The notes beneath the pieces are model-generated. The model saw only the letters and a program-made list of their open reading frames with translations. It searched no databases and had not been told where the DNA came from. The position numbers and the translations under genes are program-made. Shown one piece after another: positions 21,424 through 33,746 of a DNA stretch of 63,081 nucleotides. Each line of letters starts with the position of its first letter. The stretch's first letter is position 1. The stretch covers positions 1-63,081 of IMG/VR virus record IMGVR_UViG_3300011116_000165; one strand, given 5' to 3'. This DNA comes from a virus.

Positions 21424-21437
21424 CTAACATTTGTTAG
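21424..21437. repeat. Dispersed palindrome 1 (14 bp, perfect)
   Basis: CTAACATTTGTTAG, within a longer CCTAACATTTGTTAGG, just after the stop of the DUF3310 gene and before the terminator. Confidence 0.9.
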
Positions 21438-21440
21438 GTA

Positions 21441-21881
21441 TCACTTGAGCATACTGATCTCTCGCGTCAGATACCACTGTGCCTTGCGCAAGTCCTCCAG
21501 CTTGTTGCCTTTGTGGTCGGCGCGGGTCAGATACTTGACTACGTTGCCAAGGTTGTACCCCAGCTTCTTAGCCTCAATGAAGTCGATGGTCTCGATACCA
21601 CCTACCTTGTAATGGGCAGGGTGATTGACGTTATCGGGGGCGTTCACCGTATCGTTACTTGTGATGATTGCCAGCGTCTTCCACTTGTTCGCTGCTACCT
21701 TAGCTGACTTGCGTGGTACACGTGGGATGCCCTTCTTAGCTTTCTTGTCGTACGAAAGGGTTGCGTATACGTTCCTCAACGTAACACCCTCCAACGCCGC
21801 CGCAATATCATTTGGCTTAGCCTTGGGATGCTGCTTAACGTACGCACGGATTTTTGCTGCTGCTGTCTTAGTTTGTTTCAT
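21441..21881 (-). CDS. HTH-like domain fused to DUF3310
   Basis: 146 aa from the ATG at 21881 (GGAG 6 nt upstream). The N-terminal 50 residues look like a winged or plain HTH (KAKPNDIAAALEGVTLRNVYATL). A basic linker follows, then a C-terminal DUF3310 domain (NHPAHYKVGGIETIDFIEAK, then YLTRADHKGNKLEDLRKAQWYL). DUF3310 also occurs in the T7 gene 1.7 nucleotide kinase, but most members have no known activity. Last gene of its operon. Confidence 0.75.
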   Translation of the reverse strand: MKQTKTAAAKIRAYVKQHPKAKPNDIAAALEGVTLRNVYATLSYDKKAKKGIPRVPRKSAKVAANKWKTLAIITSNDTVNAPDNVNHPAHYKVGGIETIDFIEAKKLGYNLGNVVKYLTRADHKGNKLEDLRKAQWYLTREISMLK

Positions 21882-22083
21882 TTTTAACTCCAGTTTGGTT
21901 AGTAACATACTCAGTAAGAATTTCTCTCATCTTGGCTTGCTTTGTATACGCAAAGTTAGTGTTGAAGTAATCCATCACCTCCTTTGTTAGACGCAGGCTC
22001 GTATTGAAAAGCGCGGGTTTCTTACCCAATCCCCGCCCTTTTCGTTTTTTCTCCGGTTTTAAAAACTCAATCCCTGTTGTCAT
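21868..22083 (-). CDS. Ribbon-helix-helix-like protein (BrnA-antitoxin-like fold)
   Basis: 71 aa. A basic N-terminus is followed by LFNTSLRLTKEVMDYFNTNF and KMREILTEYV, the beta-strand plus two helices of RHH DNA-binding proteins; the spacing resembles BrnA-type antitoxins. No partner toxin is adjacent, so a regulator is more likely. Candidate binder of the nearby palindromes. Overlaps both neighbours. Confidence 0.55.
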   Translation of the reverse strand: MTTGIEFLKPEKKRKGRGLGKKPALFNTSLRLTKEVMDYFNTNFAYTKQAKMREILTEYVTNQTGVKNETN

Positions 22084-22231
22084 TGGTTTGTTCCTTTCGT
22101 GCTTTCATAAATTGGTCGGCTATCGTAAACGCCTGCTCATGTGGAAAGTTGTCGTTCTTATTTCTAATCAACAACGCTGCCATTACAAACATAGCTGCAA
22201 GGTCTCGTAAATTCTGTTCATGCTCGGTCAT
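22067..22231 (-). CDS. Small early protein
   Basis: 54 aa, start at the ATG with GGAG 7 nt upstream (MTEHEQNLRDLAAM). One hydrophobic helix (AAMFVMAALLI, residues about 11-21) then a charged tail; possibly membrane-touching but too short to call a transmembrane protein with confidence. Overlaps the RHH-like gene by 17 bp. Confidence 0.5.
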   Translation of the reverse strand: MTEHEQNLRDLAAMFVMAALLIRNKNDNFPHEQAFTIADQFMKARKEQTNDNRD

Positions 22232-22478
22232 CGTAGGCTCCAAAAGGCATAGGGCAATTCTCAGGCGGTACAACTACGCACCATACTGCGCTCCACTTGC
22301 CTCGGCCTTTACCCACCTTGGGAATCCATCGGTCAATATAAGCGTCGGGCATCTTCTCTAAGCTACGCCCTGCATTGGTGTAGTTCATATTGAGGTAGTT
22401 GGATACATCTAACAATGTTAGGCCATCGTGGTACTGTTGCAATAGCATCCTAATTCGATGCTGCGGGGGTGTGTTCAT
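22218..22478 (-). CDS. Small HTH-like protein
   Basis: 86 aa with AAAGGAG upstream of the ATG. Residues about 5-45 look like a winged-helix HTH (RMLLQQYHDGLTLLDVSNYLNMNYTNAGRSL in outline), the rest a Trp-rich hairpin (KWSAVWCVVVPP). Contains palindrome 2 in the codons for LTLL. DNA-binding role inferred from the fold only. Confidence 0.55.
   Translation of the reverse strand: MNTPPQHRIRMLLQQYHDGLTLLDVSNYLNMNYTNAGRSLEKMPDAYIDRWIPKVGKGRGKWSAVWCVVVPPENCPMPFGAYDDRA
22409..22421. repeat. Dispersed palindrome 2 (13 bp, perfect, in gene)
   Basis: CTAACAATGTTAG inside the HTH-like gene, read as LTLL. Confidence 0.9.
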
Positions 22479-22720
22479 GTGTTTTTCTCCTTTAGTTTGG
22501 TTTCAATGGCTTTATAAAAAACACCCCAGCCATCGTTCTGCCATTGCTCGTACGCTTGTTGTTGCTCTTCATCCGTCAACCCAACCCAAGGGCGCTCAGG
22601 CCACTGCGCTACCACATCAGCACGCACCCGCAGGGCAAAGTTATATATCTCAGGTGTCATCTGCTTGATGCCAGCCTCCGCGCCAATCCTGTCCAGCTTT
22701 GGTATTAGTCGTTCACCCAT
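22475..22720 (-). CDS. Small phage protein with PWVGLTDEE motif
   Basis: 81 aa from the ATG at 22720 (AAGGAG 7 nt upstream). Contains RPWVGLTDEEQQQAY, a motif common in accessory proteins of tailed phages and shared with the gene at 23205. Function unknown. Confidence 0.6.
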   Translation of the reverse strand: MGERLIPKLDRIGAEAGIKQMTPEIYNFALRVRADVVAQWPERPWVGLTDEEQQQAYEQWQNDGWGVFYKAIETKLKEKNT

Positions 22721-22943
22721 TGTTTTTCTCCTTGAGAATTGACTCTGCACTGGTTGCAGCTTGCTTCGCTGCCGAATCCCAAAAATCAATCATGGCGTGG
22801 TGTTTGATACGCCATGCAAACACGCGCAGTTCAGGTGTTAACTCAACCCGCGCTTCCTTTGCAATTGCTTCTAGCTTTAGCTTCTCTTCTTCCATAGTTT
22901 TGTATACGTCGTAGCGTTTGTATAAATGTTCTTTGCTATCCAT
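22713..22943 (-). CDS. Small early protein
   Basis: 76 aa from the ATG at 22943 with AAGGAG upstream. Charged coiled-coil-like N-terminal half; ends in ILKEKNNG, like the KEKNNG end of the preceding gene, suggesting a shared junction sequence (AAGGAGAA.AATAATGG) duplicated between genes. Confidence 0.55.
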   Translation of the reverse strand: MDSKEHLYKRYDVYKTMEEEKLKLEAIAKEARVELTPELRVFAWRIKHHAMIDFWDSAAKQAATSAESILKEKNNG

Positions 22944-23208
22944 TATTCTTCTCCTTGTCTGCTTTCTCCTTGTCTTTGCGCTCCAGTGCAATCATGTAAT
23001 CCAGTGAATCTTGAATCGACTTTTGGTTTCTTACTGACAGATTTTTCAAATCTTCAAACGTGATATGTGGTTTTTTCTGGGTGTCGCATAACTCTGCCAT
23101 GTACGCAAAGTAATCCCTACGCGCTACCGTTTCTATATACCATATTAGCGTTTGTAGCTCGTTTGTATTTGGCACACCAAGTAGTTCAATCATTTCAGTG
23201 TTAGTCAT
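22936..23208 (-). CDS. Small early protein
   Basis: 90 aa (MTNTEMIELLGVPNTNELQT...). Mostly helical; no domain recognised. Overlaps neighbours on both sides by 4-8 bp, so it is part of the translationally coupled small-gene run. Confidence 0.55.
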   Translation of the reverse strand: MTNTEMIELLGVPNTNELQTLIWYIETVARRDYFAYMAELCDTQKKPHITFEDLKNLSVRNQKSIQDSLDYMIALERKDKEKADKEKNNG

Positions 23209-23471
23209 ACGTTCTTATCCTTAAATTTAGTCAGCAGGTCACGGGCAAAACCAATAGGCGTGGGTCTTTTGAAGGGTTCCCTTGACCAGTATGTTTTAGT
23301 AATCTCCTCGTCCGTCAGGTCTACCCAAGGGCGCTGTGCTGCTTTCTTTCCGTCATAGAAACCGCTTTGGTATGCAATCGTCAACGCATCGTCGTGGTCT
23401 TGGTATACCTGCGTATCGTCATCGTCCAGCTTGTCCCGCGCTGCTGCGCGTTTGCTTTCGTAGCCTGTCAT
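23205..23471 (-). CDS. Small phage protein with PWVDLTDEE motif
   Basis: 88 aa. Acidic N-terminal half (KLDDDDTQVYQDHDD), then GFYDGKKAAQRPWVDLTDEE. Shares this last motif with the gene at 22475. Unknown function. Confidence 0.6.
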   Translation of the reverse strand: MTGYESKRAAARDKLDDDDTQVYQDHDDALTIAYQSGFYDGKKAAQRPWVDLTDEEITKTYWSREPFKRPTPIGFARDLLTKFKDKNV

Positions 23472-23680
23472 GCTCTACCTCTTGTGTAAACGATCTGCCT
23501 AAAATTTTCAATCCAAAAAGCAGCGGGTTTATTTTGCAGCAGGGGGTTGTCCTCTACTGGGCGCAGTTCCTCTATCGACTTCATAATGGCTTCACGCTCA
23601 TGCGCTGCTACCAATTCGGCAAAGCGTTCCAGCCAATAGTCGCGTTGACCCGCTTGCTTTGCTAGTTCAATGTAGTTCAT
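23468..23680 (-). CDS. Small early protein with FAELVAAHERE motif
   Basis: 70 aa. RFAELVAAHEREAIMKSIEE is closely related to FAALVAAHEREECAKVVED in the next gene, so the two are tandem paralogs. Such short motif-sharing proteins are frequent in phage accessory regions; no function known. Confidence 0.6.
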   Translation of the reverse strand: MNYIELAKQAGQRDYWLERFAELVAAHEREAIMKSIEELRPVEDNPLLQNKPAAFWIENFRQIVYTRGRA

Positions 23681-23871
23681 GCTTCACCTCTTGCTCTGAT
23701 TTTTTCAACAATGAAATCGGCTATTTCATCTGGGGGTACAAACAAATCCTCAACTACTTTGGCGCACTCCTCACGCTCATGCGCGGCTACCAATGCGGCA
23801 AAGTGTTCTATGTCACCATGCAAGTTCAGCCCATTGGTTTCAATCAGTTTAATAATTTCATCTTGTGTCAT
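23677..23871 (-). CDS. Small early protein, paralog of 23468-23680
   Basis: 64 aa, opens MTQDEIIKLIETNG and carries FAALVAAHEREE. Overlaps both neighbours by 4 bp. Confidence 0.6.
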   Translation of the reverse strand: MTQDEIIKLIETNGLNLHGDIEHFAALVAAHEREECAKVVEDLFVPPDEIADFIVEKIRARGEA

Positions 23872-24191
23872 ACCTTGCCCCTTGCTCTGTCCATAACTCT
23901 TTCCATCGCGTCTGAGTAGCTCATGCCTAACGCTTTGTTTATAAGCGCCAATGACTCATCAATGATTTCATCATGCACTCCCGCTTCTACTTCCCTGAGA
24001 ACAGTTAGCGTCATCTTTGCATCCTCTAACGCTTCAATGTCTGCGCTGTTAACTTTCCACATCAACTCAATGTCTTCTTCAATTGTGTCAACGTAGGGCT
24101 TAATTGGCTTCAAAGGTTTTATCCGATCAAACATCTTCTTGCCTAGTTCGTAAAACTCTTTGTCTTTGCCTGTGTTGTTATCTATAGTCAT
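23868..24191 (-). CDS. Small acidic early protein
   Basis: 107 aa from the ATG at 24191, which overlaps the stop of the membrane protein gene (ATGA), so coupled translation replaces a clear Shine-Dalgarno. Helical and acidic (TIEEDIELMWKVNSADIEAL). Unknown function. Confidence 0.55.
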   Translation of the reverse strand: MTIDNNTGKDKEFYELGKKMFDRIKPLKPIKPYVDTIEEDIELMWKVNSADIEALEDAKMTLTVLREVEAGVHDEIIDESLALINKALGMSYSDAMERVMDRARGKV

Positions 24192-24355
24192 TTCAGCACC
24201 ACCGCAACAAGAATTGACGCCCCCACTACAAAGATCACCCACACGATCAAGCCCTTGACCTGCTGCACAAACTGCGCGTAGTCGCTAGGCTCGGGCTCGT
24301 CGTACTCCCAATCCTTTTGCTTGCGCTCCATGTATTGTTTGTCTGCTTCGTTCAT
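24188..24355 (-). CDS. Small single-pass membrane protein
   Basis: 55 aa. Charged N-terminal half (MERKQKDWEYDEPEPSDY), then one strong transmembrane helix at residues about 36-54 (GLIVWVIFVVGASILVAVVL) and a Lys end. ATGA-type overlaps with both neighbours support translation. Encoded early, away from the lysis genes, so a role at the host membrane during takeover or superinfection is possible but unproven. Confidence 0.6.
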   Translation of the reverse strand: MNEADKQYMERKQKDWEYDEPEPSDYAQFVQQVKGLIVWVIFVVGASILVAVVLK

Positions 24356-24573
24356 TTGGCACGCTCCTTTAGCATTGCGTCTGCAAATTCATAGGACAAT
24401 TTAGCTACACGCTCAAAACTACCTGTTTCCACAATCTGGTAAATTTCTTGCATTGCAAGCCCAGCAAAGTGGTCGCGCATGGTCATGTCTCGGGCGTAGC
24501 CGCCTTCCTTGACTTGCCAGTCAGCGTACTGTTTGGCGTATGCGCCTTCCATAACTATCGGTTGGTCTTTCAT
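24352..24573 (-). CDS. Small phage protein with MTMRDHFAGLAMQ motif
   Basis: 73 aa. The segment GYARDMTMRDHFAGLAMQEI and the end LSYEFADAMLKERAK are shared by many small phage proteins of unknown function. Overlaps neighbours by 4 bp on each side. Confidence 0.65.
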   Translation of the reverse strand: MKDQPIVMEGAYAKQYADWQVKEGGYARDMTMRDHFAGLAMQEIYQIVETGSFERVAKLSYEFADAMLKERAK

Positions 24574-24869
24574 TTGATTTTTCCTTCAAGCATTTCGTTT
24601 ACTAACTCGTGGCACAGTTCCTTGAACCTTGGCGTGTATGTCGTCTTGGTGTTTTCGTACCGCGCAATTTCCTCACCGTCTTTGAAGTACACCAGCACTG
24701 CCTTATCGCTCACATAACCGTTGTAGGTTTGGAAATCAGGTATGTAATGGTCAAACGATTGCAGTATTAACTTGCGGTTTTTGTTTATCTCGCTTCTGTC
24801 TAGGTTTCCACCAACTATTTCTCTGTCGATGGCTCGGCCCATAGCTTCATGCAGTTCTTCGCGGGTCAT
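24570..24869 (-). CDS. Small early protein
   Basis: 99 aa from the ATG at 24869 (GGAG 8 nt upstream). Basic start region (NLDRSEINKNRKLIL), aromatic middle, helical end. No family recognised. Confidence 0.6.
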   Translation of the reverse strand: MTREELHEAMGRAIDREIVGGNLDRSEINKNRKLILQSFDHYIPDFQTYNGYVSDKAVLVYFKDGEEIARYENTKTTYTPRFKELCHELVNEMLEGKIK

Positions 24870-24880
24870 TGCTTGTACTC

Positions 24881-25036
24881 CTAGTGAAGCCAAAGATAAA
24901 AACCATGCAGGATGCCAATCGGAAATAGGATGGCACCAGCCACCAAGAATCCCCACAAGCCCTGTGCAAAGCAAGTGAATACGTGCGTAAGCCAAGCGGC
25001 AAGGCAAGCAAATCCAAATAGTGCTGACCAGTTCAT
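24881..25036 (-). CDS. Small two-pass membrane protein
   Basis: 51 aa. Two hydrophobic helices (residues about 4-24 and 27-47; ends LHGFYLWLH) with hardly any charge. Start codon overlaps the upstream stop as TAATG. Its size and topology are holin-like, but a separate holin candidate exists at 58155 and this one is in the early operon, so another membrane role is more likely. Confidence 0.6.
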   Translation of the reverse strand: MNWSALFGFACLAAWLTHVFTCFAQGLWGFLVAGAILFPIGILHGFYLWLH

Positions 25037-25242
25037 TATTTTTTCTCCTCTGATTTAAAGCTGTCCATACGTGAGTTAAGGCGTAGGATGCGAGCCTTGT
25101 TGTAGTTGACTATGCTCTGCGCATACTCCACTGCGGTCTCGGCTTGTAGCTGTTCGATGTGCGCGTCGGCTAGCTCGGCGGCAATCATTTCCAAGGGCGT
25201 AGGGTTACGCATTTGGGTCTTTATAAACTCAATGAATTTCAT
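25036..25242 (-). CDS. Small coiled-coil protein
   Basis: 68 aa, AAGGAG 6 nt before the ATG; palindrome 3 lies directly upstream of that site. Residues about 15-60 form a long helix (ELADAHIEQLQAETAVEYAQ). Function unknown. Confidence 0.6.
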   Translation of the reverse strand: MKFIEFIKTQMRNPTPLEMIAAELADAHIEQLQAETAVEYAQSIVNYNKARILRLNSRMDSFKSEEKK

Positions 25243-25254
25243 GTGCTTCTCCTT

Positions 25255-25268
25255 CTAACAATTGTTAA
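25255..25268. repeat. Dispersed palindrome 3 (14 bp, one end base off)
   Basis: CTAACAATTGTTAA, core TAACAATTGTTA perfect. It covers the stop of the 278-aa gene and abuts the ribosome site of the next. Confidence 0.85.
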
Positions 25269-26101
25269 GTCTCGTCTACCAATAACACAAACACCTCGTC
25301 ACTAACACGGCAGCCCATATCAGTGATGTACTGTTCGTTCTCTACTAACTTCAACATGCCCAACTTCATTCGCATGACTTGAGGGAACGTATTATCGTCA
25401 TACAAACTAATCTCGTCTCCAATTTTTACTAAGTATTTACCCGCGTCTTTAATTACCAATGCTGTCTTAGCCGCAGCGAATTCACTCTGCACTCGCTCAA
25501 TGGTCAGCATCTCTACCTCCATCTCTTGCTTCTTCTCTAGGTGCATAAGAAGTTTCTGTCGCTCCATAGTCGGCATACCAGCTTGCACGTGCTGCATGAA
25601 TAGGTGGAAGCCCTCACCCAAGATAAACTTATGCGCCGCGTCGAATACGGCGTGCTCATGCTTAGTCTTCTCTCGCTCCTTATTCCATACGCCCCTAGTC
25701 ACAACCCGCTCGGCTTCGTCCCTAGCTTTCTTTAGTCGCTCGGTCTGATTCATCTTGCCGAACATCTTCTTCGCCATGACCACGGCCTTGTCTGCATCCA
25801 TAGTCGTGTACGAACCCTTCCTTGACCTCGCGCCAGCAATGCGGTCGTTATGTATTTCTACTGCTGTACCGCTACGTGTGTGGGTAGTGCCAAAACTGCC
25901 TAGCCTCTCACCATCTAGGGATACAACAAAACTTATGGCAACTGCACCGCCCATACTGCTCGACTGTGCTACCTCAAACTTCCACAGTGGGTACAGTGTG
26001 GCGAGTCGTTGGACTACTGGGGCCAGCGCACTGTGCACTTTCTCCACATTGCCGTACTTATCCTTGTCTACGATTACGTTGGGTAATGTAAAAATACTCA
26101 T
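25265..26101 (-). CDS. Conserved phage protein of the MoxR-VWA module
   Basis: 278 aa. N-terminal alpha/beta half (VDKDKYGNVEKVHSALAPVV), then a long charged coiled coil at about 110-215, then a small beta-rich end. The Shine-Dalgarno AGGAG is partly supplied by the right arm of palindrome 4 (TGTTAGGAG). Follows the 282-aa gene, VWA gene and AAA ATPase gene in order, so it probably works with them. No domain recognised. Confidence 0.6.
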   Translation of the reverse strand: MSIFTLPNVIVDKDKYGNVEKVHSALAPVVQRLATLYPLWKFEVAQSSSMGGAVAISFVVSLDGERLGSFGTTHTRSGTAVEIHNDRIAGARSRKGSYTTMDADKAVVMAKKMFGKMNQTERLKKARDEAERVVTRGVWNKEREKTKHEHAVFDAAHKFILGEGFHLFMQHVQAGMPTMERQKLLMHLEKKQEMEVEMLTIERVQSEFAAAKTALVIKDAGKYLVKIGDEISLYDDNTFPQVMRMKLGMLKLVENEQYITDMGCRVSDEVFVLLVDET

Positions 26102-26110
26102 TGACTACTC

Positions 26111-26124
26111 CTAACAATTGTTAC
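26111..26124. repeat. Dispersed palindrome 4 (14 bp, one end base off)
   Basis: CTAACAATTGTTAC between two genes. On the minus strand its arm runs into the AGGAG ribosome site of the 278-aa gene. Confidence 0.85.
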
Positions 26125-26127
26125 TAA

Positions 26128-26976
26128 TCACCACTCGAACTTGCCCAAGATTGCATCAACCTTAGACTTCAACTTCTCACGCGCTAACGGGCTATCCTTC
26201 ACCTCTTCGATGCTCTCACCAATTAACGCTAGCTCTACTTGCCTACGTGCTTCCTCCAGCTTGGGGTCGTTGGTCACGTTCAGCTTAGTCAGCAACTCAC
26301 ACAACTCCAATGGGTTGCTCAGTAGTGAGTCGTGATACCGCTTCTTATCCTCGCCGGTATCCTCCAGCTTCTTAGACGTATCGACTAACAACTTGTGCAG
26401 TCGCTCCCACGGCATACGCATCGCCTCGGCTAGCTTGCTCTCGCTCTGCTGCTCAAACTCCAGACGCATCTCATCTAAGTCCTGCGTGGGTATGTCCAAG
26501 CGAAAGTCTCCCGCCTCGGGCACAGGCTTGACCGAACGACGGAACCCAAACTTCTGCTTCACCTGCTCAAGGTCGGGGTAGTCCTCTGCCTTGTACAGCC
26601 CTTGCAACGCAGTCGGTGCTTCGGATACTAGGCGCGGATACTCATCAAAAAAGTTATCGCACAGGGACTGGAACGTACGCTCGTACCCATTCATGGTCTG
26701 CTTGTACTCCATGAACAACGCAGTCGGCAACATGCGCTCACCCTTGTCAGCCCACGGTAATGTGTGCTGGTTGTGATACAGGCGAACCCGCGCCGCGAAC
26801 TTCTCAATGTCTGCTCGTAGGCTCGTACCCGCAAACAGATTCTTCTTAGTCTGCGAGGCTCCATGCACTGCCCCTGCGTCCGTATTCACTTTGTTGGTGA
26901 TCTCCCGATCAATCTTTGATGCGGGCCATACGCTGATGTTTAACTCCACTAACACTGCTGATGAACTGATACTCAT
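26128..26976 (-). CDS. Conserved partner protein in MoxR-VWA module (DUF3150-like?)
   Basis: 282 aa with AAGGAG before the ATG. N-terminal strand segment (LVELNISVWPASKIDRE), then a mainly helical body rich in Glu and Leu. The position between a MoxR/VWA pair and the 278-aa protein recalls DUF3150-type proteins that accompany CobS/CobT-like pairs in phages and plasmids; I cannot confirm that family by eye. Confidence 0.6.
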   Translation of the reverse strand: MSISSSAVLVELNISVWPASKIDREITNKVNTDAGAVHGASQTKKNLFAGTSLRADIEKFAARVRLYHNQHTLPWADKGERMLPTALFMEYKQTMNGYERTFQSLCDNFFDEYPRLVSEAPTALQGLYKAEDYPDLEQVKQKFGFRRSVKPVPEAGDFRLDIPTQDLDEMRLEFEQQSESKLAEAMRMPWERLHKLLVDTSKKLEDTGEDKKRYHDSLLSNPLELCELLTKLNVTNDPKLEEARRQVELALIGESIEEVKDSPLAREKLKSKVDAILGKFEW

Positions 26977-26979
26977 GAT

Positions 26980-27235: not shown

Positions 27236-27249
27236 CTAACATTTGTTAG
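27236..27249. repeat. Dispersed palindrome 5 (14 bp, perfect)
   Basis: CTAACATTTGTTAG. Gives the Shine-Dalgarno of the 81-aa gene and the ATG of a 7-codon leader. Confidence 0.9.
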
Positions 27250-27259: not shown

Positions 27260-28456
27260 TTAATCTTTGACGTGAATCGTCTTGCCGTTTGGAGCAATGT
27301 CATCGTTACCCCCTACGATTGCCCACAGTACAGGCGCAGTCCACTCACTACCCCAGTCGTTACCCACGTACCCATCGGTTAGCATAATGACGCACTCGGG
27401 CTCGATACGCTTCTCTTTCAGATACGCAGATACGCATGACGGACTCGTACCACCACCGCCTCGTGGCTTCGTGGAACTAACAATGTCGCCCACCATGCTC
27501 TCGGTGTACTCCTCGTGTGCTGCCACATGGCTGTCCCAATAGATTAGGTCTACTTGGCTAGGATTAACTTCCTCAGCAATACCCTTGACCTCACCAAGGA
27601 ACCCCGACAACTCGGCCTGACCGATCGAACCGGACGTGTCAATGGCAATCACTAGGTGACCTACTTTCTCACCGATCATGCTTGGCATATACGTGCCTGT
27701 GGATAGGAACCTACGGTTAACCCTGCGCCATGACGACGTATCCTTTGCGCGGCATGTGGCTTTCACAAACTCACGCAACGCTTCGCGCCAATCAATCTTG
27801 GGCTCAAGTAAGTCCAGCACATCACGGTCTAGCCCACCTGCACCAGTTCCCGCAACTTTCTGCTGCGCCATGACTCCCTGACGAATCGCTTGGTCAATGT
27901 CACGCTCAAGCTCACGCTTAGCCTCGGCACTCAACTCCTGCGCACCATCCCAATCATGCTCATCGAACCCACCGCCACCACCACCGCCGTTCTTCTCTTG
28001 CTCTTCCTTCAGTAGGTCGAACACTTGCTTGGCATTGAGGCCACGATACTTCTCGTCAACCAAGCCCATCGGCAAGCCCTTCATCTTGCCATCCTTGTAG
28101 CGTGGCATGGCAATGACCGACTCGGTAGGATCAAGGTCTTTGAGCTTAAGGTTAATCACGTAGTCACAAGACTGATTGGCTAGGCTGTGATCTTCATCAT
28201 GCAGCTTCTTCCACGTAGTCAGGTGACGAAATGCCTTGTGCAGATTCTCATGTAGCACCACGAAATTCAACTCGGGGTCTTTCAACTCCTTGACGAACTC
28301 GCGTCCATAAGTCTCGTCGCGTCCATTGGTACACGCCGTGGGGATATCGTCCGACACTCGTGTCTTGCCCACCATCATGATGCCCGACCAAAGCGCAAAC
28401 TTCGGGTTACGCATCAAGCTAATCTTGGCCTTCTGTACTCTGCGTTCTTCTAACAT
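27260..28456 (-). CDS. VWA-domain protein with putative HExxH metallopeptidase domain (DUF2201/CobT-like)
   Basis: 398 aa. H69-E-N-L-H73 in FVVLHENLHKAF is a zinc-peptidase motif in the N-terminal domain. Gly/Glu-rich linker (about 155-170). The C-terminal VWA domain has a MIDAS motif D273-T-S-G-S277 and a later MLTDGY. This two-domain form is the DUF2201 type, which pairs with MoxR ATPases. The start ATG lies inside palindrome 6 (AACAAATGTTAG, giving M-L-E-E), with AGGAG 9 nt upstream. The substrate is unknown. Confidence 0.85.
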   Translation of the reverse strand: MLEERRVQKAKISLMRNPKFALWSGIMMVGKTRVSDDIPTACTNGRDETYGREFVKELKDPELNFVVLHENLHKAFRHLTTWKKLHDEDHSLANQSCDYVINLKLKDLDPTESVIAMPRYKDGKMKGLPMGLVDEKYRGLNAKQVFDLLKEEQEKNGGGGGGGFDEHDWDGAQELSAEAKRELERDIDQAIRQGVMAQQKVAGTGAGGLDRDVLDLLEPKIDWREALREFVKATCRAKDTSSWRRVNRRFLSTGTYMPSMIGEKVGHLVIAIDTSGSIGQAELSGFLGEVKGIAEEVNPSQVDLIYWDSHVAAHEEYTESMVGDIVSSTKPRGGGGTSPSCVSAYLKEKRIEPECVIMLTDGYVGNDWGSEWTAPVLWAIVGGNDDIAPNGKTIHVKD

Positions 28457-28463
28457 TTGTTAG
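28450..28463. repeat. Dispersed palindrome 6 (14 bp, perfect, holds a start codon)
   Basis: CTAACATTTGTTAG; on the minus strand the central ATG is the start of the VWA gene. Confidence 0.9.
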
Positions 28464-28474
28464 GTCTCCTTGTA

Positions 28475-28972
28475 TTAAAGTTTTGCTCTCGTATAAACTG
28501 GGTCGGCAAACAAAGCATTCCCTCGCAGCCCCTTCTTCCACCGGCTGCCAAGCAGCCCATACTTCCATCCTTTGTGTCTAGCCCAATCAGCAAGGCTCAT
28601 AGTCAACCCCTCATGTGTAATGAATACGTTAGTAACTCTATTGTTGGCTTGTTCCGTTCGGTTAGCCCACCTAACATTGTTAGGTTCGTAGTTGCCGTTG
28701 TTGTCGATGCGGTCAAGCGTTGCCCCTTTGGGTCGTTCACCAATCGCGGATACAAAAACGGCATAGTCTTCCGCCCACTCTGCACACATGGTTATGCCCC
28801 TACCACCGTAGCGGTGATAGTTTGGGGTGTTTGGGTTGAAGCATCGGTCTTTGATTCCCCTCCATAGTTTGTACATCGGACTGCTTTTGCCTTGCCTAGC
28901 ATCCACTGCGCCACCGTGCTTTGTGCGCTTACGGTTTGCGTCGGCTACGCCTTGGTTGTATTTACGTTCCAT
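28475..28972 (-). CDS. HNH endonuclease, probably mobile (homing-type)
   Basis: 165 aa. YKLWRGIKDRCFNP, then YHRYGGRGITMC, then ATLDRIDNNGNYEPNNVRW form the HNH-like core common in free-standing phage homing enzymes. A C-terminal HTH-like segment (SLADWARHKGWKYGLLGSRW) would aid site binding. It has its own weak promoter and separates the MoxR from the VWA gene, which normally adjoin, as an inserted element would. Palindrome 7 lies in the codons for NNV. Confidence 0.8.
   Translation of the reverse strand: MERKYNQGVADANRKRTKHGGAVDARQGKSSPMYKLWRGIKDRCFNPNTPNYHRYGGRGITMCAEWAEDYAVFVSAIGERPKGATLDRIDNNGNYEPNNVRWANRTEQANNRVTNVFITHEGLTMSLADWARHKGWKYGLLGSRWKKGLRGNALFADPVYTRAKL
28671..28683. repeat. 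Dispersed palindrome 7 (13 bp, perfect, in gene)
   Basis: CTAACATTGTTAG inside the HNH gene. Confidence 0.9.
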
Positions 28973-29013
28973 GATTTACTCCGGTTATAAGTGGGACTCA
29001 CCACCATGTAATG

Positions 29014-29019: not shown

Positions 29020-29039
29020 CCACACATCAAGACTAAGTC

Positions 29040-30104
29040 TTATAATAAATCTTGGTTTAACGCGACCCACTCAGAGAATGCCTTGCAGCTAAACGCAATG
29101 CTCTGCTTGCTCTGCGTCTTGCTCAAGTTGATAGCGAACACCGCTTGCCACTCGGCATCGAACCGCTTGAGGTACTCCATGAATGGTGTGATCGTCACCT
29201 TGTCGATACGTGCGATAGCACCGAACACCACGATGGCACACGCCCCTGAACTCGTAGGCACAGGCGTATTCTTTGGGTCACGGATAGTCGCCTCCCACGT
29301 AGGTAGCTGGTCGGCAAACTCTATGTATGCTTGCATATCTCTAGCACCACTCTCGCCAATAGCACCGGTCAACGCAGCGATCACGGCATCGGGGTCATTG
29401 TCCTTGCGGGTCTTAACAATGTTAGATGCAGTCTCCAGCGAACGTGGGGATACGAACGCATTCTGAGTCTTGCGCGGGTTAAAGATATAGGGGTTGTCGC
29501 CCTGCCCACCGTCGGTGTAGCTTGCCAATACTTGCGGGAACCGATTCACCCATGCAATCACCTCGGGCGATACATCCTTCTCGATGGCCCAATTAATCCA
29601 TTCCTCGGAAGTCGGCTTAGCCACCGTGATCTCAACGATACGGTTGCGGGTGTGGGCCTTGAGCGTGTCTCCCACTCCGTCAGTAGACAGATTACCAGTC
29701 AGGAACACCACCGTCCGATTGTCCAGCGATACATCACCCAAGCGTGGATTCTTCTTCTCTAGGCACGGGTGCAGCATATTCTTCACAGGGTCAGCGCCCT
29801 TGCTGAACTCGTCGAACATCATCACCAGTGGCTTGCCATTGTGAATCTTGAACCGTGCGTTGGGATAATACTTTGTGGTACGTGTCTCGTGGTCGATCAC
29901 AGGCATTGCGACATCACCTAAATCCATATTGGGTACGTCGATATACGCATGGTCGTATCCAAGGCGCTCGGCGATCTGCTCCAGCATCGAACTCTTGCCA
30001 ATGCCCGGCTCTCCACGTAGCATGAACCTCGTCTCGGGGTTGGTCACGATTAGGTTGACCGCTTGCTTGAGGGTAACGGTCTTGCCAAAGTTAATTTCAG
30101 CCAT
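29040..30104 (-). CDS. MoxR/CobS-like AAA+ ATPase
   Basis: 354 aa. Walker A GEPGIGKSS (K37), Walker B MMFDEF (D98, E99), sensor-type FLTGNLSTDG and an RNRIVE arginine region. MoxR ATPases act as chaperones for VWA partners, and such a partner lies one gene downstream. AAGGA lies 8 nt before the ATG. Transcribed from the promoter at 30.23 kb. It likely drives remodelling of a phage or host target; which one cannot be read from the sequence. Palindrome 8 lies in the codons for SNIVK. Confidence 0.85.
   Translation of the reverse strand: MAEINFGKTVTLKQAVNLIVTNPETRFMLRGEPGIGKSSMLEQIAERLGYDHAYIDVPNMDLGDVAMPVIDHETRTTKYYPNARFKIHNGKPLVMMFDEFSKGADPVKNMLHPCLEKKNPRLGDVSLDNRTVVFLTGNLSTDGVGDTLKAHTRNRIVEITVAKPTSEEWINWAIEKDVSPEVIAWVNRFPQVLASYTDGGQGDNPYIFNPRKTQNAFVSPRSLETASNIVKTRKDNDPDAVIAALTGAIGESGARDMQAYIEFADQLPTWEATIRDPKNTPVPTSSGACAIVVFGAIARIDKVTITPFMEYLKRFDAEWQAVFAINLSKTQSKQSIAFSCKAFSEWVALNQDLL
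29413..29425. repeat. Dispersed palindrome 8 (13 bp, one end base off, in gene)
   Basis: TTAACAATGTTAG inside the MoxR gene. Confidence 0.8.
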
Positions 30105-30134
30105 GATAAAGTCCTTCTGATTACGCTAATAAAT

Positions 30135-30148
30135 CTAACAAATGTTAG
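30135..30148. repeat. Dispersed palindrome 9 (14 bp, perfect)
   Basis: CTAACAAATGTTAG in the 5' leader of the MoxR gene, about 75 bp after the -10 box. Confidence 0.9.
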
Positions 30149-30221
30149 GTGGGGATTACTCTGCATTTATTTAGAGCCTACACCTACTTGACTACGAACA
30201 GAATTATCCGTGCCAATATAC

Positions 30222-30250
30222 ATTATACCACAAAGTAATAGATATGTCAA
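30222..30250 (-). promoter_or_regulatory. Consensus sigma70 promoter for MoxR module
   Basis: Minus strand TTGACA (30250-30245), 17 bp, TATAAT (30227-30222), with TG before the -10. The spacer end TTTGTGG and the whole layout match the promoter at 32.27 kb closely. Confidence 0.85.
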
Positions 30251-30271
30251 GTATTTCGACACACCATTTGC

Positions 30272-31345
30272 CTACACAAACTTGAACCAATCCGCGTAGT
30301 TTGTACTCGCTACTTTGCCCACAGGCATCCTCACCTGCTCTAACACCTCCTCTTTGAATACCCGCAGCACGAACTCGTCGGCCAGCTTCTCCGCACTTGA
30401 CCGGCTTATCCGAAAGAACTCAGCCTTCGTTGCTATGTGCGTCTGCTGCGCAACTAACAATGTTAGGGCCGCACGATAGAAATTCTCGCCCTTCACCTCG
30501 TCCGGCTGGTCGTTGCGCATCAGGGCCAGCACCTCCAGCTTGTCGGCTTTCTCCCTCGCGTTCTGCATGTCGCGCTCCTTCTCGGCTCCCCATGTTCTCA
30601 GGTGCGTGAACAATGCCTTGCGTGGCTCAGTTGTATCCACCGTAGGAGTACCACCAAACACGTGCACGGTCTGCCCGAACATGTTCACCACTGTTTCCAT
30701 GTGTACTACCACTTCTGTCTTAGCCACAAACGGTGTCTCGGCAGTCGGCTTGTTCCACCGCTGGTTGGCATACCTCACATCAAAGTCGATGTGCTCGGTC
30801 AGGATTGAAGTCATGCCCTTGTAGTACTTGAGAAACTCAGTGTACGGCGCTCTAACAATGTTAGCTTTCGCTTTGCTCAGTCTCCACTCCAGCGCACCCT
30901 CGGCCTGCACCACCGTCCACACTGGTATGAGTCCACTCTTGTCGCGCTTTATTCTGAACTCGTTCGCACCCAGCACGTACTTGTCCTTGCCATCCCTTAG
31001 CTGCACCACCGTCTTGCCCTTGCTTGTGTACACGTGGATATCGCTCAGCAACTCCACCACAAACTCGCGCACATACGCCGTGTTGTATCTGCCCACACTA
31101 ATCTGTACCTCATCGTTGGGGTGATACGTCACCACCGTCCCATTCTCACCGCTGTAGCAGCAGCATTCATACAAAACTACGCCGTCGGCAATCCTCTCGC
31201 GGATGTACAGGTGCTTATCGCTTCGTTTGGCTAGCGGCCTCGTCTTATTCTTGTCGCCTCGGATAGGCGTGGTCATGTCGTGTCGCTTTTTAGCTTCCTC
31301 ATACGTGCGTATGTACGGTACTCTATGGGTTGAATTGAATGTCAT
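30272..31345 (-). CDS. Large early protein, unknown function
   Basis: 357 aa, GGAG 8 nt before the ATG. Mixed alpha/beta, basic N-terminus (RGDKNKTRPLAKRSDKHLYI), a beta-rich middle (ECCCYSGENGTVVTYHP), and a helical C-terminus. No catalytic signature recognised. Contains palindromes 10 and 11. Upstream of, but not in the same transcript start as, the MoxR module. Confidence 0.65.
   Translation of the reverse strand: MTFNSTHRVPYIRTYEEAKKRHDMTTPIRGDKNKTRPLAKRSDKHLYIRERIADGVVLYECCCYSGENGTVVTYHPNDEVQISVGRYNTAYVREFVVELLSDIHVYTSKGKTVVQLRDGKDKYVLGANEFRIKRDKSGLIPVWTVVQAEGALEWRLSKAKANIVRAPYTEFLKYYKGMTSILTEHIDFDVRYANQRWNKPTAETPFVAKTEVVVHMETVVNMFGQTVHVFGGTPTVDTTEPRKALFTHLRTWGAEKERDMQNAREKADKLEVLALMRNDQPDEVKGENFYRAALTLLVAQQTHIATKAEFFRISRSSAEKLADEFVLRVFKEEVLEQVRMPVGKVASTNYADWFKFV
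30464..30476. repeat. Dispersed palindrome 10 (13 bp, perfect, in gene)
   Basis: CTAACAATGTTAG, codons for LTLL in the 357-aa gene. Confidence 0.9.
30852..30864. repeat. Dispersed palindrome 11 (13 bp, perfect, in gene)
   Basis: CTAACAATGTTAG, codons for ANIVR in the 357-aa gene. Confidence 0.9.
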
Positions 31346-31349
31346 GTCG

Positions 31350-31523
31350 TTACTCCATTGTTTCGGCAGCAGTGCGCAGCCGGTATGCTTTGATACGCTT
31401 GTTGCTCATGTACTTCATCATGTACCGCTCTTTCGCAGCCTCGGCATTCTTGGCCTCGATTACCTCGGTGTCCCACACACCGTAGCGGTTGCTCCATCCT
31501 GTTACGCAGTATCTAGCTAACAT
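31350..31523 (-). CDS. Small protein, start inside palindrome 12
   Basis: 57 aa (MLARYCVTGWSNRYGVWD, then a basic helical half ending TAAETME). AAAGGA precedes the ATG by about 9 nt, and the ATG is the centre of CTAACAAATGTTAG. The stop codon lies 5 bases before the next gene. The Trp/Tyr-rich start and coupled context support a real gene. Function unknown. Confidence 0.6.
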   Translation of the reverse strand: MLARYCVTGWSNRYGVWDTEVIEAKNAEAAKERYMMKYMSNKRIKAYRLRTAAETME

Positions 31524-31776
31524 TTGTTAGGTTCCTTTCGTTTATTTCGTTTGTATGGTTCACCATCATGGCTACCAGCTTATCGGTTAACTTAGCCATG
31601 TGTATCAGCACCGACTGGTCATCACTTTGCGCAACTATCGCCCACACCCTGCCTCGTTGCTTGGCTATATCTGTGAAGTCGTACCACTTGCGCTCGACCA
31701 CGATAAAGTTACCGCTAAACCCGCGCAGTAGCATGTACTTCTTCTTGCGCCGTGGCTTGGTCACCCTCTGCTCCAT
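31513..31776 (-). CDS. Small basic early protein
   Basis: 87 aa. Basic N-terminus (RVTKPRRKKKYMLLRG), then a beta-rich part. Its last codons (LTNVS) are encoded by palindrome 12. Unknown function. Confidence 0.6.
   Translation of the reverse strand: MEQRVTKPRRKKKYMLLRGFSGNFIVVERKWYDFTDIAKQRGRVWAIVAQSDDQSVLIHMAKLTDKLVAMMVNHTNEINERNLTNVS
31517..31530. repeat. Dispersed palindrome 12 (14 bp, perfect, holds a start codon)
   Basis: CTAACATTTGTTAG at the overlap of two genes; encodes the end of one and the ATG of the other. Confidence 0.9.
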
Positions 31777-31964
31777 AGCTTCTCGTACACCTGCGCCTCG
31801 TCACGTAGCGGGTGCAGCGTGGCATCGTCAAGGCTCATCAGTCTGCGCATCTCCACGATTGTCGCGTGGGCCATGTCAGGCTCACCCTTGGCTAGTTTGT
31901 CGTCGGCATCGTCCAACAATGTTAGAAATCTTTGGTATTCACTCGGTCGGATACTTGGTCTCAT
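31761..31964 (-). CDS. Small helical early protein
   Basis: 67 aa (MRPSIRPSEYQRFLTLLDDADDKL...), all helix. Overlaps neighbours by 4-16 bp. Palindrome 13 is read as LTLLD, the same peptide as in the gene at 22218. Unknown function. Confidence 0.55.
   Translation of the reverse strand: MRPSIRPSEYQRFLTLLDDADDKLAKGEPDMAHATIVEMRRLMSLDDATLHPLRDEAQVYEKLWSRG
31913..31925. repeat. Dispersed palindrome 13 (13 bp, one base off, in gene)
   Basis: CCAACAATGTTAG inside the 67-aa gene. Confidence 0.75.
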
Positions 31965-32203
31965 GCTCGCTGCTCCTTCGGATTAGTTTGTTTGAGCGTT
32001 GTGTATGCGCTCGTATTGGTTACAAACTGATAGGCTCCCTTGGTGTACTCTTGGATAATGCACCACGATGTGCGCTCTTGCCTCGCGGCTTCCTCCCCGC
32101 AGAACAAGCACACCGACTTGATGCGAGCACGTTCGGGCGGCTCGATATCGTCACCGCATACTCTGCACGTGGTATTTATGTACCCCAAATTGATTTCTAA
32201 CAT
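31961..32203 (-). CDS. Small zinc-ribbon protein
   Basis: 80 aa. Two CxxC pairs (TCRVCGDD and VCLFCGEE, residues about 13-35) form a zinc ribbon like those of DksA/TraR-type proteins; the C-terminal half (QEYTKGAYQFVT, QTNPKE) is common in small phage proteins. The start ATG lies inside palindrome 14, giving M-L-E-I, with AAGGA upstream. A regulatory role is possible. Confidence 0.7.
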   Translation of the reverse strand: MLEINLGYINTTCRVCGDDIEPPERARIKSVCLFCGEEAARQERTSWCIIQEYTKGAYQFVTNTSAYTTLKQTNPKEQRA

Positions 32204-32210
32204 TTGTTAG
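32197..32210. repeat. Dispersed palindrome 14 (14 bp, perfect, holds a start codon)
   Basis: CTAACATTTGTTAG; its minus-strand ATG starts the zinc-ribbon gene, about 60 bp after the promoter -10. Confidence 0.9.
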
Positions 32211-32269
32211 GTTCCTTTGCTATGTTACGTTTTGCAGGGCAGAAAAAGGATTTCCCCTACCCAGTCTAT

Positions 32270-32298
32270 ATTATACCACAAAATTATATATAAGTCAA
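32270..32298 (-). promoter_or_regulatory. Sigma70 promoter, twin of 30.23 kb
   Basis: Minus strand TTGACT (32298-32293), 17 bp, TATAAT (32275-32270), extended TGG before the -10. Drives the zinc-ribbon gene and those after it. Confidence 0.8.
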
Positions 32299-32379
32299 GT
32301 TTTTAGCTGAAGTGAAAGTTACGTAACAATAGGCAGAAATGGGCTATGTTACGTGTTACAAAACGGGAATGTAACAACC

Positions 32380-32582
32380 TAAGTCGTTGATTCTTAACTT
32401 GAAAAAGGGGAAAATCAGGTTAAAGTTAAAAAGTAATAAAGTTATATGTATGTATATGAAGCCTGCCAAAAAATGGGTGTGGTACGAATTGCGCTTGCTG
32501 CCTTCTTCAACCTCTGCGCAAGTCGTCCATATATGCCCAAAAACATTGTAACTTATAACATAGCTTATAAATCAACGACTTA
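32380..32582. repeat. 13-bp perfect inverted repeat around AT-rich core
   Basis: TAAGTCGTTGATT at 32380-32392 and its exact complement AATCAACGACTTA at 32570-32582, 177 bp apart. Confidence 0.85.
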
Positions 32583-32636
32583 CGAGAAACGTAACGTAAC
32601 AAAGCCCTAAAAAGCGTAACATTGGGCTAATGTTAT

Positions 32637-32650
32637 ATAACATTTGTTAG
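32637..32650. repeat. Dispersed palindrome 15 (14 bp, one end base off)
   Basis: ATAACATTTGTTAG in the non-coding region. Confidence 0.85.
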
Positions 32651-32656
32651 TTTAAT

Positions 32657-32759
32657 CCTACCGCCGCACAGAGAACTGGTGCAGCCCAAACATTCGCCGA
32701 TGCCTCTTTTGTAACAAAGCCTAGCCCTACTGCCGCACAGGGAACTGGTGCAGCCCAAA
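32657..32759. repeat. 34-bp direct repeat pair
   Basis: 32657-32690 and 32726-32759 agree at 32 of 34 bases (CCTAC, C or T, GCCGCACAG, A or G, GAACTGGTG...), 69 bp apart. Each copy can fold as GCACAG-(R)GAA-CTGGTGC. Non-coding; origin iteron or RNA motif. Confidence 0.85.
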
Positions 32760-32786
32760 AAATTTGGGCGAAAAAAAACCCAACAA

Positions 32787-32799
32787 ATAACATTGTTAG
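32787..32799. repeat. Dispersed palindrome 16 (13 bp, one end base off)
   Basis: ATAACATTGTTAG, the only 13-bp copy outside a gene, next to the terminator at 32810. Confidence 0.8.
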
Positions 32800-32809
32800 G
32801 TGTAGACGC

Positions 32810-32833
32810 AAAAAAGCCCGCATAAAGCGGGCT
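32810..32833 (-). terminator. Rho-independent terminator
   Basis: Minus-strand AGCCCGC-TTTAT-GCGGGCT followed by TTTTT. Closes the first leftward transcript (33599 to 32853). Confidence 0.9.
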
Positions 32834-32852
32834 CAGGGTAAGAGCGTAGGGA

Positions 32853-33032
32853 TTAGGAAAAACGCAAGCCAGTGCTTGGGTCAATCAAACCGTCAATGCC
32901 TAGCCTAGTAACGGCTTCACCAACTTCACCGATAGATTTAATAAGTTCGGGCAGGGTTATCAATCCCGAGGCATACATTTGGATTTGCGTCATGGTGTGG
33001 TTATGTAGGTGTTGAATTTGATTTTGCGTCAT
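32853..33032 (-). CDS. Small early protein
   Basis: 59 aa (MTQNQIQHLHNHTMTQIQMY...), GGAG 9 nt before the ATG, stop 19 bp before a terminator. Helical second half (ELIKSIGEVGEAVTRLGIDG) and a DPSTGLRFS end. Flanked by its own palindrome (17) and terminator, which supports a real gene. Unknown function. Confidence 0.65.
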   Translation of the reverse strand: MTQNQIQHLHNHTMTQIQMYASGLITLPELIKSIGEVGEAVTRLGIDGLIDPSTGLRFS

Positions 33033-33056
33033 GGTCTTTTCTCCGAGGGTTGAAAT

Positions 33057-33070
33057 CTAACAATTGTTAG
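33057..33070. repeat. Dispersed palindrome 17 (14 bp, fully symmetric)
   Basis: CTAACAATTGTTAG, 25 bp upstream of the 59-aa gene. Confidence 0.9.
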
Positions 33071-33101
33071 GGATGGGGGAGGGTTTCCCCTCCCCTCCCG
33101 A

Positions 33102-33599
33102 TTAGCCTAGCGTGCTCACGTCTCCGCCCATGCCCTCGTAAACGTCCATCAAGTTAGCTTTGAACATCGAAGCGTTACAGTCTTGGCCCTCTTCCTCTGA
33201 TTTCAGAATACGGTTTATCATGGTTTTCAGTTCCGCCATTGTCTTACTGTCTACGTCCGTCCCGCCGGTAACGCGACCCTTCGGTACGTATCCAGAGGCC
33301 TCTTTCACACGTTGCCAATAAACGTCAATGGTAGGCTTACCGAAACCGGCCTCAGTCATGGCGTCCACAAAAGCGGCGCGCTCTGCCTTGATGCCCTTTT
33401 TGTCTTTGCCCACTAGCTCATACCATGCGGTAACGTTAGTACCGCTAGTGTCGCTGACGTTGTACGTCATGCAAAGGGCATCAGCATACCCTTGGATTAC
33501 CGCGCCCGTACCCTTAGCGGCGGTTACTAACTTGCGCCGCGCCGCAGCGACAATGCCGGTGTCAATAGCGGGGGCGGTGGTGGTGATTACGTTCGTCAT
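33102..33599 (-). CDS. First leftward gene, early protein of unknown function
   Basis: 165 aa. Ala/Lys/Thr-rich; DKKGIKAERAAFVDAMTEAG and TIDVYWQRVKEASGYVP are distinct helical segments, and an EEEGQD acidic turn follows. About 60 nt leader from the promoter at 33.67 kb. As the first gene from the divergence point it is probably made earliest and strongly. No family recognised. Confidence 0.7.
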   Translation of the reverse strand: MTNVITTTAPAIDTGIVAAARRKLVTAAKGTGAVIQGYADALCMTYNVSDTSGTNVTAWYELVGKDKKGIKAERAAFVDAMTEAGFGKPTIDVYWQRVKEASGYVPKGRVTGGTDVDSKTMAELKTMINRILKSEEEGQDCNASMFKANLMDVYEGMGGDVSTLG

Positions 33600-33669
33600 A
33601 CTCTAACCTCTTCTAATAAACCCTAGTGCTCCTAGGAGAGATACCGCATTGTGTGTCGGTATGCTATAT

Positions 33670-33697
33670 ATTATACATATCGTGGTACATAATGCAA
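33670..33697 (-). promoter_or_regulatory. Leftward early promoter
   Basis: Minus strand TTGCAT (33697-33692), 16 bp, TATAAT (33675-33670). Starts the leftward block. Confidence 0.65.
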
Positions 33698-33732
33698 GCC
33701 CATAAATAAAATAATTAAATGGGGTCTATGGG

Positions 33733-33746
33733 CTAACAATTGTTAG
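33733..33746. repeat. Dispersed palindrome 18 (14 bp, fully symmetric)
   Basis: CTAACAATTGTTAG, 36 bp upstream of the -35 box of the leftward promoter, outside the predicted transcript, which favours a DNA-level role. Confidence 0.9.

Follow-up and report, generated by a model that had tools for sequence, protein, structure and literature searches.

Why does one short palindrome recur along a single part of a phage genome, and what reads it? The window, by which we mean the whole stretch analysed, is the 63,081-base-pair (bp) virus record IMGVR_UViG_3300011116_000165 of IMG/VR. Its palindromes take two forms, CTAACA-N-TGTTAG (13 bp) and CTAACA-NN-TGTTAG (14 bp), and at one end of their array lies gene 33102-33599, which encodes a candidate regulator. 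A pattern search for CTAACAN{1,2}TGTTAG found 12 exact copies in the window, every one within 21424-33746; 100 dinucleotide shuffles of the window gave a mean of 0.02 exact copies and a maximum of 1. Six more copies carry one mismatch (25255, 26111, 29413, 31913, 32637, and 32787). Beyond 21000-34074, no copy in the window is better than two mismatches when gaps of 0-5 are tried. These counts agree with the first-pass annotation, made from the letters alone, which had listed 18 copies in this interval, a low chance expectation, and none elsewhere; only its coordinate 30464 has to be changed, to 30454.

The rightward block of the window has PHROG matches to terminase, portal, head, and ejection proteins, and the leftward block contains DNA polymerase A, a helicase, DUF927, DUF3310, DUF2201, and a MoxR-like AAA gene. 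The leftward block extends to 11323. The sites end at 21424, directly ahead of a terminator-like hairpin (21413-21396) and a promoter-like site (21378-21351), and therefore mark the first leftward region only. Eleven of the 12 copies outside gene bodies have the 14-bp form, the exception being the 13-bp copy at 32787, and three 14-bp copies (28450, 31517, and 32197) contain the ATG of a gene start. The six intragenic copies (22409, 28671, 29413, 30454, 30852, and 31913) are 13 bp without exception and fall in two different reading frames. One of them, 28671, may be coincidental, because the residues PNNVRW at this copy resemble a motif common among HNH proteins. When 21400-33800 and 34074-50000 were compared with a phage collection by megablast, no match was found, and the best named terminase is 58% identical.

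Relatives were collected by a scan for the MoxR-like gene, a name taken from annotated matches, from which the best 80 of 220 loci were kept. In these 80 loci and the window (1.27 Mb together), CTAAC-n-GTTAG occurs 442 times at n = 3 and 317 times at n = 4, and 18 times at all other n from 0-8 together, while six permuted stems gave means of 2.2 and 2.5 at the same two spacings. Equal density in the late block and absence from close relatives, two of the outcomes that the first-pass annotation had named as speaking against its reading, were not found (host genomes lay outside the pattern search), with exact sites confined to 21424-33746 in the window and 442 plus 317 cores counted across relatives and window. 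The loci fall into classes with 13-bp sites, mainly 14-bp sites, GTAACA-NN-TGTTAC (L010), CTGACA-NN-TGTCAG (L044), a mixture (L064), or no array (L005, L006, L011, and L024), and loci of the 13 and 14 classes are intermingled on the MoxR tree. In the four array-less loci no other repeated dyad stood out. Two of them keep a sole exact site (L005:10501 and L006:17327) just ahead of the end-of-operon terminator, the same place as 21424 in the window. In L164 (9892-13123), CTGACA and CTAACA palindromes are mixed, and a hybrid copy at 11756, with CTAACA on one side and TGTCAG on the other, is a possible step of half-site change. The isolates with the nearest terminases, DSL-LC04, 023Pt_psg01, and HTVC027P (53-58% identity, 50 kb each), have no palindrome with 6-base arms more than 2 times, and no description of this array was found in the openly readable papers searched.

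Four long relatives carry 13, 13, 16, and 13 exact copies. In these and the window, the array is limited to one 10-13 kb stretch, bar 5 one-mismatch copies. This bears on the possibility that what the sites organise is not transcription but the viral DNA itself, during its segregation, packaging, or condensation or in the timing of its replication. Many copies over about 12 kb and one protein would suit such a role, but the confinement to one stretch does not, nor does the tie of the sites to promoters and gene boundaries described below, and a ParA-type ATPase (PF13614), as a ParABS partition system would call for, was found in 0 of 15 records. We find this explanation improbable. Segregation, one of the roles first suggested for a dimeric protein binding at many points, finds no support, and stoperator-like DNA binding by such a protein is the best supported role for what would be a dimer.

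Which protein might read the sites? Clustering of open reading frames (ORFs) across the loci flagged the family of gene 33102-33599, which accompanies both site classes and is missing from the four array-less loci. It consists of two very different groups, T13 and T14, linked by profile comparison (E 9e-10). Among 46 loci with a regulator, 28 combine T13 with 13-bp sites and 18 combine T14 with 14-bp sites, without exception; here and in the MoxR-codon, coding-share, and nearest-neighbour counts below, L010 (GTAACA), L044 (CTGACA), and L064 (mixed) are labelled 14. When the 38 loci reaching more than 6.5 kb upstream of MoxR are considered, the regulator is present in 35 of 35 array-bearing loci and in none of the three array-less ones (L006, L011, and L024; Fisher 1.2e-4). 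L005 extends only 4.1 kb upstream, so its missing regulator is uninformative. Loci that carry the array but not the regulator stop no more than 5.3 kb upstream of MoxR, and known distances between MoxR and regulator are 2.5-5.7 kb; the gene may lie beyond the contig end in these. In the interval from the late block to MoxR, which is the regulator's place in relatives, L006 (4324-5049) and L011 (5516-6151) have a common, unrelated-looking ORF with 54% identity over 119 residues. Tblastn finds it in none of the remaining loci among the 80, and L024 is without it too. It is possible that this ORF is a replacement regulator with other sites.

Scans with each group yielded 73 loci with T14 and, with T13, the best 80 of 101; these loci and those of the MoxR scan overlap in part, the same contigs recurring among them. 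An exact 14-bp site occurs in none of the best 80 of 101 T13-scan loci and a 13-bp site in 77. Merging identical ORFs left 130 distinct regulators (61 T13 and 69 T14). The T13 ORFs are accompanied by 13-bp sites only in 58 cases, by no exact site in 3, and by an exact 14-bp site in 0. With T14, 41 ORFs have 14-bp sites only, 17 (the window included) have both lengths, 8 have 13-bp sites only, and 3 have neither. Those with neither carry other arrays, namely GTAACA with a gap of 2 (L010/L117), ATAACA with a gap of 2 (L158), and CTAACA with a gap of 3 in two copies (L173). Five of the eight T14 ORFs with only 13-bp sites are divergent members, at 37-41% identity to the window protein (L163, L168-L172), so that a further change of spacing preference seems to have taken place within T14.

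Another protein, of host or phage, could be the binder, with 33102-33599 merely linked to the array; the gene lies at one array end, and gene and array could be exchanged jointly. A nearest-neighbour test, which asks in each of 20 families whether the closest relative shares site length, bears on this. It omits the four array-less loci and families with fewer than 20 loci or fewer than 5 of either label. When neighbours of at least 90% MoxR identity were excluded, the regulator scored 43/43, whereas the 19 other families, genes inside the array among them, scored 17-81% (best 26/32). The regulator kept 43/43 at every cut, including exclusion of at least 86% MoxR identity. At the 90% cut, the RHH-like gene 21868 reached 23/41, the HTH/DUF3310 gene 21441 18/48, and MoxR itself 36/75. 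The test covers the fetched flanks, and the HTH gene 14176, a further binder suggested in the first-pass annotation, lies outside them and is present in the 4 long contigs covering its position. Genes 21868 and 21441, which the first-pass annotation had offered as binders, are also present in the array-less L005, L006, and L011, and with their poor prediction of spacing we reject them. A different binder altogether is, to our mind, very improbable. Because its type co-varies with site spacing, the regulator is the likely binder, and we consider it highly probable that 33102-33599 and the palindromes are a cognate pair.

The regulator family is unrecognised so far, with no convincing match in Pfam, PHROG, or PDB (NCBIfam and PADLOC were not searched). 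The window regulator alone gave nothing in Pfam at 0.05, and both types at a limit of 1 gave best values of 0.0062 and 0.028, each coming from one member or a handful. The best PHROG value for the 14-type was 0.018 and the best value against PDB sequences for both types was 0.28, neither convincing, and tblastn of both types against INPHARED gave no match. Pattern scans of genome collection contigs with either type found no relative, which is weak evidence since the patterns were short. The AlphaFold2 model of the window regulator (pLDDT, the predicted local distance difference test, 81) is nearly all helical. Foldseek with the 14-type model gave no match in PDB and BFVD at E<=0.001, and the highest VIA-align score, Z 6.6, was to designed helical repeats and does not rise above the noise that helical models usually give. 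A helix-turn-helix (HTH) at residues 64-101 is a guess from the modelled helices. In the regulator leader of L106, L214, and others, an inverted repeat of the type ATGCAAAC..GATTGCAT lies past the -10 box at about +1 and is perhaps a 5'-end hairpin of early mRNA.

Are the sites read as DNA or as RNA? The first-pass annotation had allowed for an RNA hairpin operator, and we initially favoured that reading because all 14-bp cores taken together are biased on the coding strand (AAAT 165 : ATTT 39). The palindromes would then be mRNA hairpins with a 5-bp stem and a loop of 3 or 4, and the protein would control translation by binding them, mainly where ribosomes bind. Consistent with this, a simple gene caller places the start codon, in fixed register, within 90 distinct exact sites (14-bp form 60, 13-bp form 30), further sites overlap ribosome sites, and cores in coding sequence are biased as well. 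However, the bias vanishes in intergenic sites away from starts, where the central bases are balanced at AA 23 : TT 23 in the 14-bp form and A 30 : T 32 in the 13-bp form (copies with identical flanks counted once). Nor was the stem kept up by G-U or compensatory changes on the mRNA strand, as would be expected of an RNA hairpin operator. The 315 single-pair departures (identical flanks removed) comprise 11 G-U, 41 A-C, 46 other standard pairs, and 217 that are none of these; the ratio of G-U to A-C would be reversed for RNA of the other strand. The isolated hairpins are also predicted to be weak, at -1.1 and -2.4 kcal/mol. Furthermore, among 62 of the 120 regulators with enough flank that have both a predicted promoter and a site (the window not included), 57 have a site upstream of the predicted transcription start. 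This upstream site is about 108-172 bp ahead of the regulator start codon among the regulators listed (60 of 120), and a site with at most 1 mismatch follows within 250 bp past the stop in 99/120. The weak promoter in the window is below the criterion for the 62, and the position of 33733 upstream of it was judged by eye. That an upstream copy argues for DNA had been proposed in the first-pass annotation, and its recurrence in relatives bears this out. The RNA reading was dropped after the separation of start sites, the wobble count, and the upstream site. Because intergenic cores are balanced, G-U is not favoured, and a copy lies upstream of the regulator promoter, we conclude that the sites very likely act as DNA rather than RNA; translation control by an mRNA hairpin is improbable.

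The two lengths can be followed as they change in place. Alignment of 13-bp sites to 14-label loci, with copies having identical flanks removed, gave 1,544 distinct alignments, which end in an exact 14-bp site (135), a 13-bp site (161), another 14-base stretch (139), or a decayed or gapped sequence (1,109). The orthologous 13/14-bp sites in the 135 alignments differ by one central base. From L020 4358 to L055, the site is lengthened and the start codon keeps its place. From L020 2043 to L017 9268, an intragenic site, a base is lost beside the site and the frame is restored afterwards (NRKQSNNVRSRYS and NRKALTNVRSRYS). In MoxR, the residues SNIV and a mostly basic residue are nearly constant, and the palindrome there needs particular synonymous codons. 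It is found in 37/41 loci labelled 13, 12/36 labelled 14, and 0/4 without an array, with a chance from codon use of about 0.0012. Within 14-label loci, coding sequence holds 14 of the 20 distinct 13-bp sites versus 21 of 223 14-bp sites, a surplus that would follow if an added base is hard to accommodate in a coding site. Such 13-bp coding sites could be relics or tolerated sites.

To what effect would the regulator bind? Strong extended promoters (10/12 or better, with TG) number 225 in site-bearing early regions once identical flanks are removed; promoters of related phages are not independent, and the position counts are descriptive. An exact site starts at +20 to +110 for 156/225 of these promoters and at -50 to +10 for 0/225. 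The 25-50 bin past promoters holds 106 sites versus 6 expected at mean density, and a second peak of 52 sites at -100 to -75 fits a site preceding a terminator and the promoter of the next unit. In the window, a 12/12 promoter (30250-30222) is followed by site 30135 and an 11/12 promoter (32298-32270) by site 32197. Many other sites are at gene boundaries.

These positions suggest a mechanism. The 165-residue protein would bind double-stranded DNA as a symmetric dimer, each subunit reading CTAACA, and members of the family would be adapted to a 1-bp or 2-bp gap between half-sites. The regulator would be produced early, from a promoter of its own with one site upstream and frequently a further one in the leader, and would then shut down early transcription. 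It would leave promoters uncovered and sit about 20-110 bp downstream, and at further operon points up to the terminator, halting RNA polymerase as a roadblock. Judging from sequence, we lean toward a self-regulated repressor that would block early transcription after initiation in a stoperator-like manner, with palindromic sites, and we consider negative regulation through a block to elongation somewhat probable.

A positive or antitermination-type factor, loaded just downstream of early promoters and along the operon to aid polymerase passage, would likewise have sites at +20 to +110, as nut-type sites follow early promoters in the same way, and the regulator is the first gene. For an activator, the site upstream of the regulator's own promoter would be suitable. 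Antitermination sites are usually few, however, and are read as RNA in one orientation. Like the nut sites for lambda N, the sites here lie shortly past early promoters, but they are DNA palindromes with many intragenic copies, one copy upstream of a promoter, and the final one immediately ahead of a terminator. The counted early promoters are also near-consensus, so an activator should be unnecessary. We find a positive role unlikely.

Several observations weigh against a roadblock repressor paired with these sites. No exact site lies at +20 to +110 of 69/225 promoters, and the site upstream of the regulator promoter does not fit a pure roadblock; it would fit looping or activation. Among the 57 T13 regulators with enough flank, an exact site is found at most 300 bp upstream in 38 and none in 19. 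Cores in coding sequence are unbalanced (13-bp T 67 : A 37; 14-bp AA 9 : TT 0), which may reflect codon constraint. The 14-type model could not be assigned to any known DNA-binding fold. The rule linking type to spacing is not absolute, given the 8/69 T14 ORFs with only 13-bp sites, the 17 with both lengths, and the 3 with neither; likewise, the three T13 ORFs without an exact site stem from loci that have none (L203, L229, and L243). When close relatives are not excluded, two other families are also perfect in the nearest-neighbour test (32/32 and 39/39). Because BLAST finds next to no match between T13 and T14 (across labels the mean identity is 0.5), the regulator score is effectively a two-type match. 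Finally, phylogenetically independent switches are few, with 3 well-supported pairs, all concordant, and 6 on the whole tree, and p<0.05 is unreachable.

The features of the window are collected in the table. Two other observations concern its layout. In 32640-32790, a long AT-rich intergenic region, two near-copies of the stretch GGGCTGCACCAGTTC..TGTGCGGC..GTAGG lie between two sites. The MoxR-like AAA gene and the DUF2201 metallopeptidase/VWA gene (27260-30104) form a conserved pair, which few other parts of the early block equal in how widely they are shared.

Table. Palindromic sites, candidate regulator, and predicted transcription signals in the window, listed leftward from the regulator end
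Feature	Coordinates	Strand	Remarks
Regulator gene, 165 aa (amino acids), '14-type', proposed site-binding protein	33102..33599	-	type-spacing match; absence from array-less loci
14-bp site, exact	33733..33746	.	133 bp upstream of regulator start; upstream of its promoter (by eye); probably untranscribed
Regulator's own weak promoter, read by eye	TTGCAT 33697-33692, TATAAT 33675-33670
14-bp site, exact	33057..33070	.	31 bp beyond regulator stop codon
13-bp site, 1 mismatch	32787..32799	.	intergenic, past terminator-like hairpin
14-bp site, 1 mismatch	32637..32650	.	intergenic
Promoter-like, TTGACT-17-TATAAT with TG (11/12)	32270..32298	-	
14-bp site, exact	32197..32210	.	holds ATG of gene 31961-32203; about +53 from predicted transcription start
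13-bp site, 1 mismatch	31913..31925	.	within gene 31761-31964
14-bp site, exact	31517..31530	.	holds ATG of gene 31350-31523
13-bp site, exact	30852..30864	.	within gene 30272-31345
13-bp site, exact	30454..30466	.	within gene 30272-31345
Promoter-like, TTGACA-17-TATAAT with TG (12/12)	30222..30250	-	upstream of MoxR-type ATPase gene
14-bp site, exact	30135..30148	.	leader of gene 29040-30104; about +67 from predicted transcription start
13-bp site, 1 mismatch	29413..29425	.	within MoxR-type ATPase gene; exact in 37/41 loci labelled 13
13-bp site, exact	28671..28683	.	within gene 28475-28972; possibly coincidental
14-bp site, exact	28450..28463	.	holds ATG of DUF2201 gene 27260-28456
14-bp site, exact	27236..27249	.	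overlaps ribosome site (TTAGGAG) of next gene
14-bp site, 1 mismatch	26111..26124	.	overlaps ribosome site of gene 25265-26101
14-bp site, 1 mismatch	25255..25268	.	just upstream of ribosome site, gene 25036-25242
13-bp site, exact	22409..22421	.	within gene 22218-22478
14-bp site, exact, array's last	21424..21437	.	between DUF3310 gene stop and terminator
Terminator-like hairpin and T run	21396..21413	-	end of site-bearing region
Promoter-like (11/12)	21351..21378	-	next leftward unit (nuclease, PolA, helicase); unit without exact or one-mismatch site

How does this array compare with known systems? Dimeric phage operators of the lambda CI/Cro kind are palindromic and have the regulator gene beside its own sites. 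The array shares both features, but here a dozen or more copies extend over 10-13 kb, and none starts at -50 to +10 of the 225 promoters. Cluster A mycobacteriophages (L5, Bxb1) have 20-30 stoperators that are oriented with transcription, lie mostly away from promoters, and are distinct between subclusters (PMC6550527). These are described as asymmetric 13-mers bound by a monomer (PMC9283540). The same sources place some sites in short intergenic spaces, propose a block to elongation, and give integrase or parA as the means of inheritance (PMC6550527, PMC9283540). Alike are the dispersed copies of one site for a phage-encoded regulator (18 here versus 20-30, the 13-16 exact copies of relatives being somewhat fewer) and the co-variation of site sequence with the phage's own regulator, to which the exceptions here are within T14. 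In contrast, the sites here are palindromes in two lengths with cores that are strand-balanced in intergenic sites away from starts. Neither integrase nor parA was found in the 15 records. The L5 repressor has an N-terminal HTH and a Stoperator domain. The regulator here gave no convincing Pfam match and its 14-type model no clear fold match, with no direct comparison made, and it falls in no recognised HTH family. Since the site is palindromic and homology of the regulator to the L5 repressor is not established, we do not class the array as a member of the Cluster A stoperators. The tyrosine integrase count (PF00589) was 0/15 records; serine integrases were not searched with a model of their own, and the records may be incomplete. 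A lytic life is likely, not proven, and therefore we do not assume classical lysogenic immunity.

Taken together, our results raise the possibility, which we put forward tentatively and at slightly less than even confidence, of stoperator-like control in seemingly purely lytic phages. A helical regulator family would silence its own early operon via a dozen or more palindromic roadblocks, with specificity in the gap between half-sites. Lineages would have shifted from 13 to 14 bp or back, with 15 bp as a possible further state (L173), through gain or loss of one central base pair at many sites per genome, even in frame with compensation. In other lineages the half-site itself would have drifted (GTAACA, ATAACA, CTGACA), in L164 half by half. 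A difference in spacing may protect relatives that infect the same cell from mutual silencing. If true, dispersed-site roadblock control would extend beyond actinobacteriophages, the group whose papers describe it in the literature searched, to uncultivated phages of aquatic habitats, whose site is symmetric and whose regulator family is unrecognised. The phages would also offer a natural series for a hard question, the joint evolution of a regulator with its full set of operators, with intermediates readable in the sequence: genomes mixed for 13- and 14-bp sites, half-sites of hybrid make-up, coding sites preserved through synonymous codon choice, and absence of the array from loci in which the gene is lacking or replaced.

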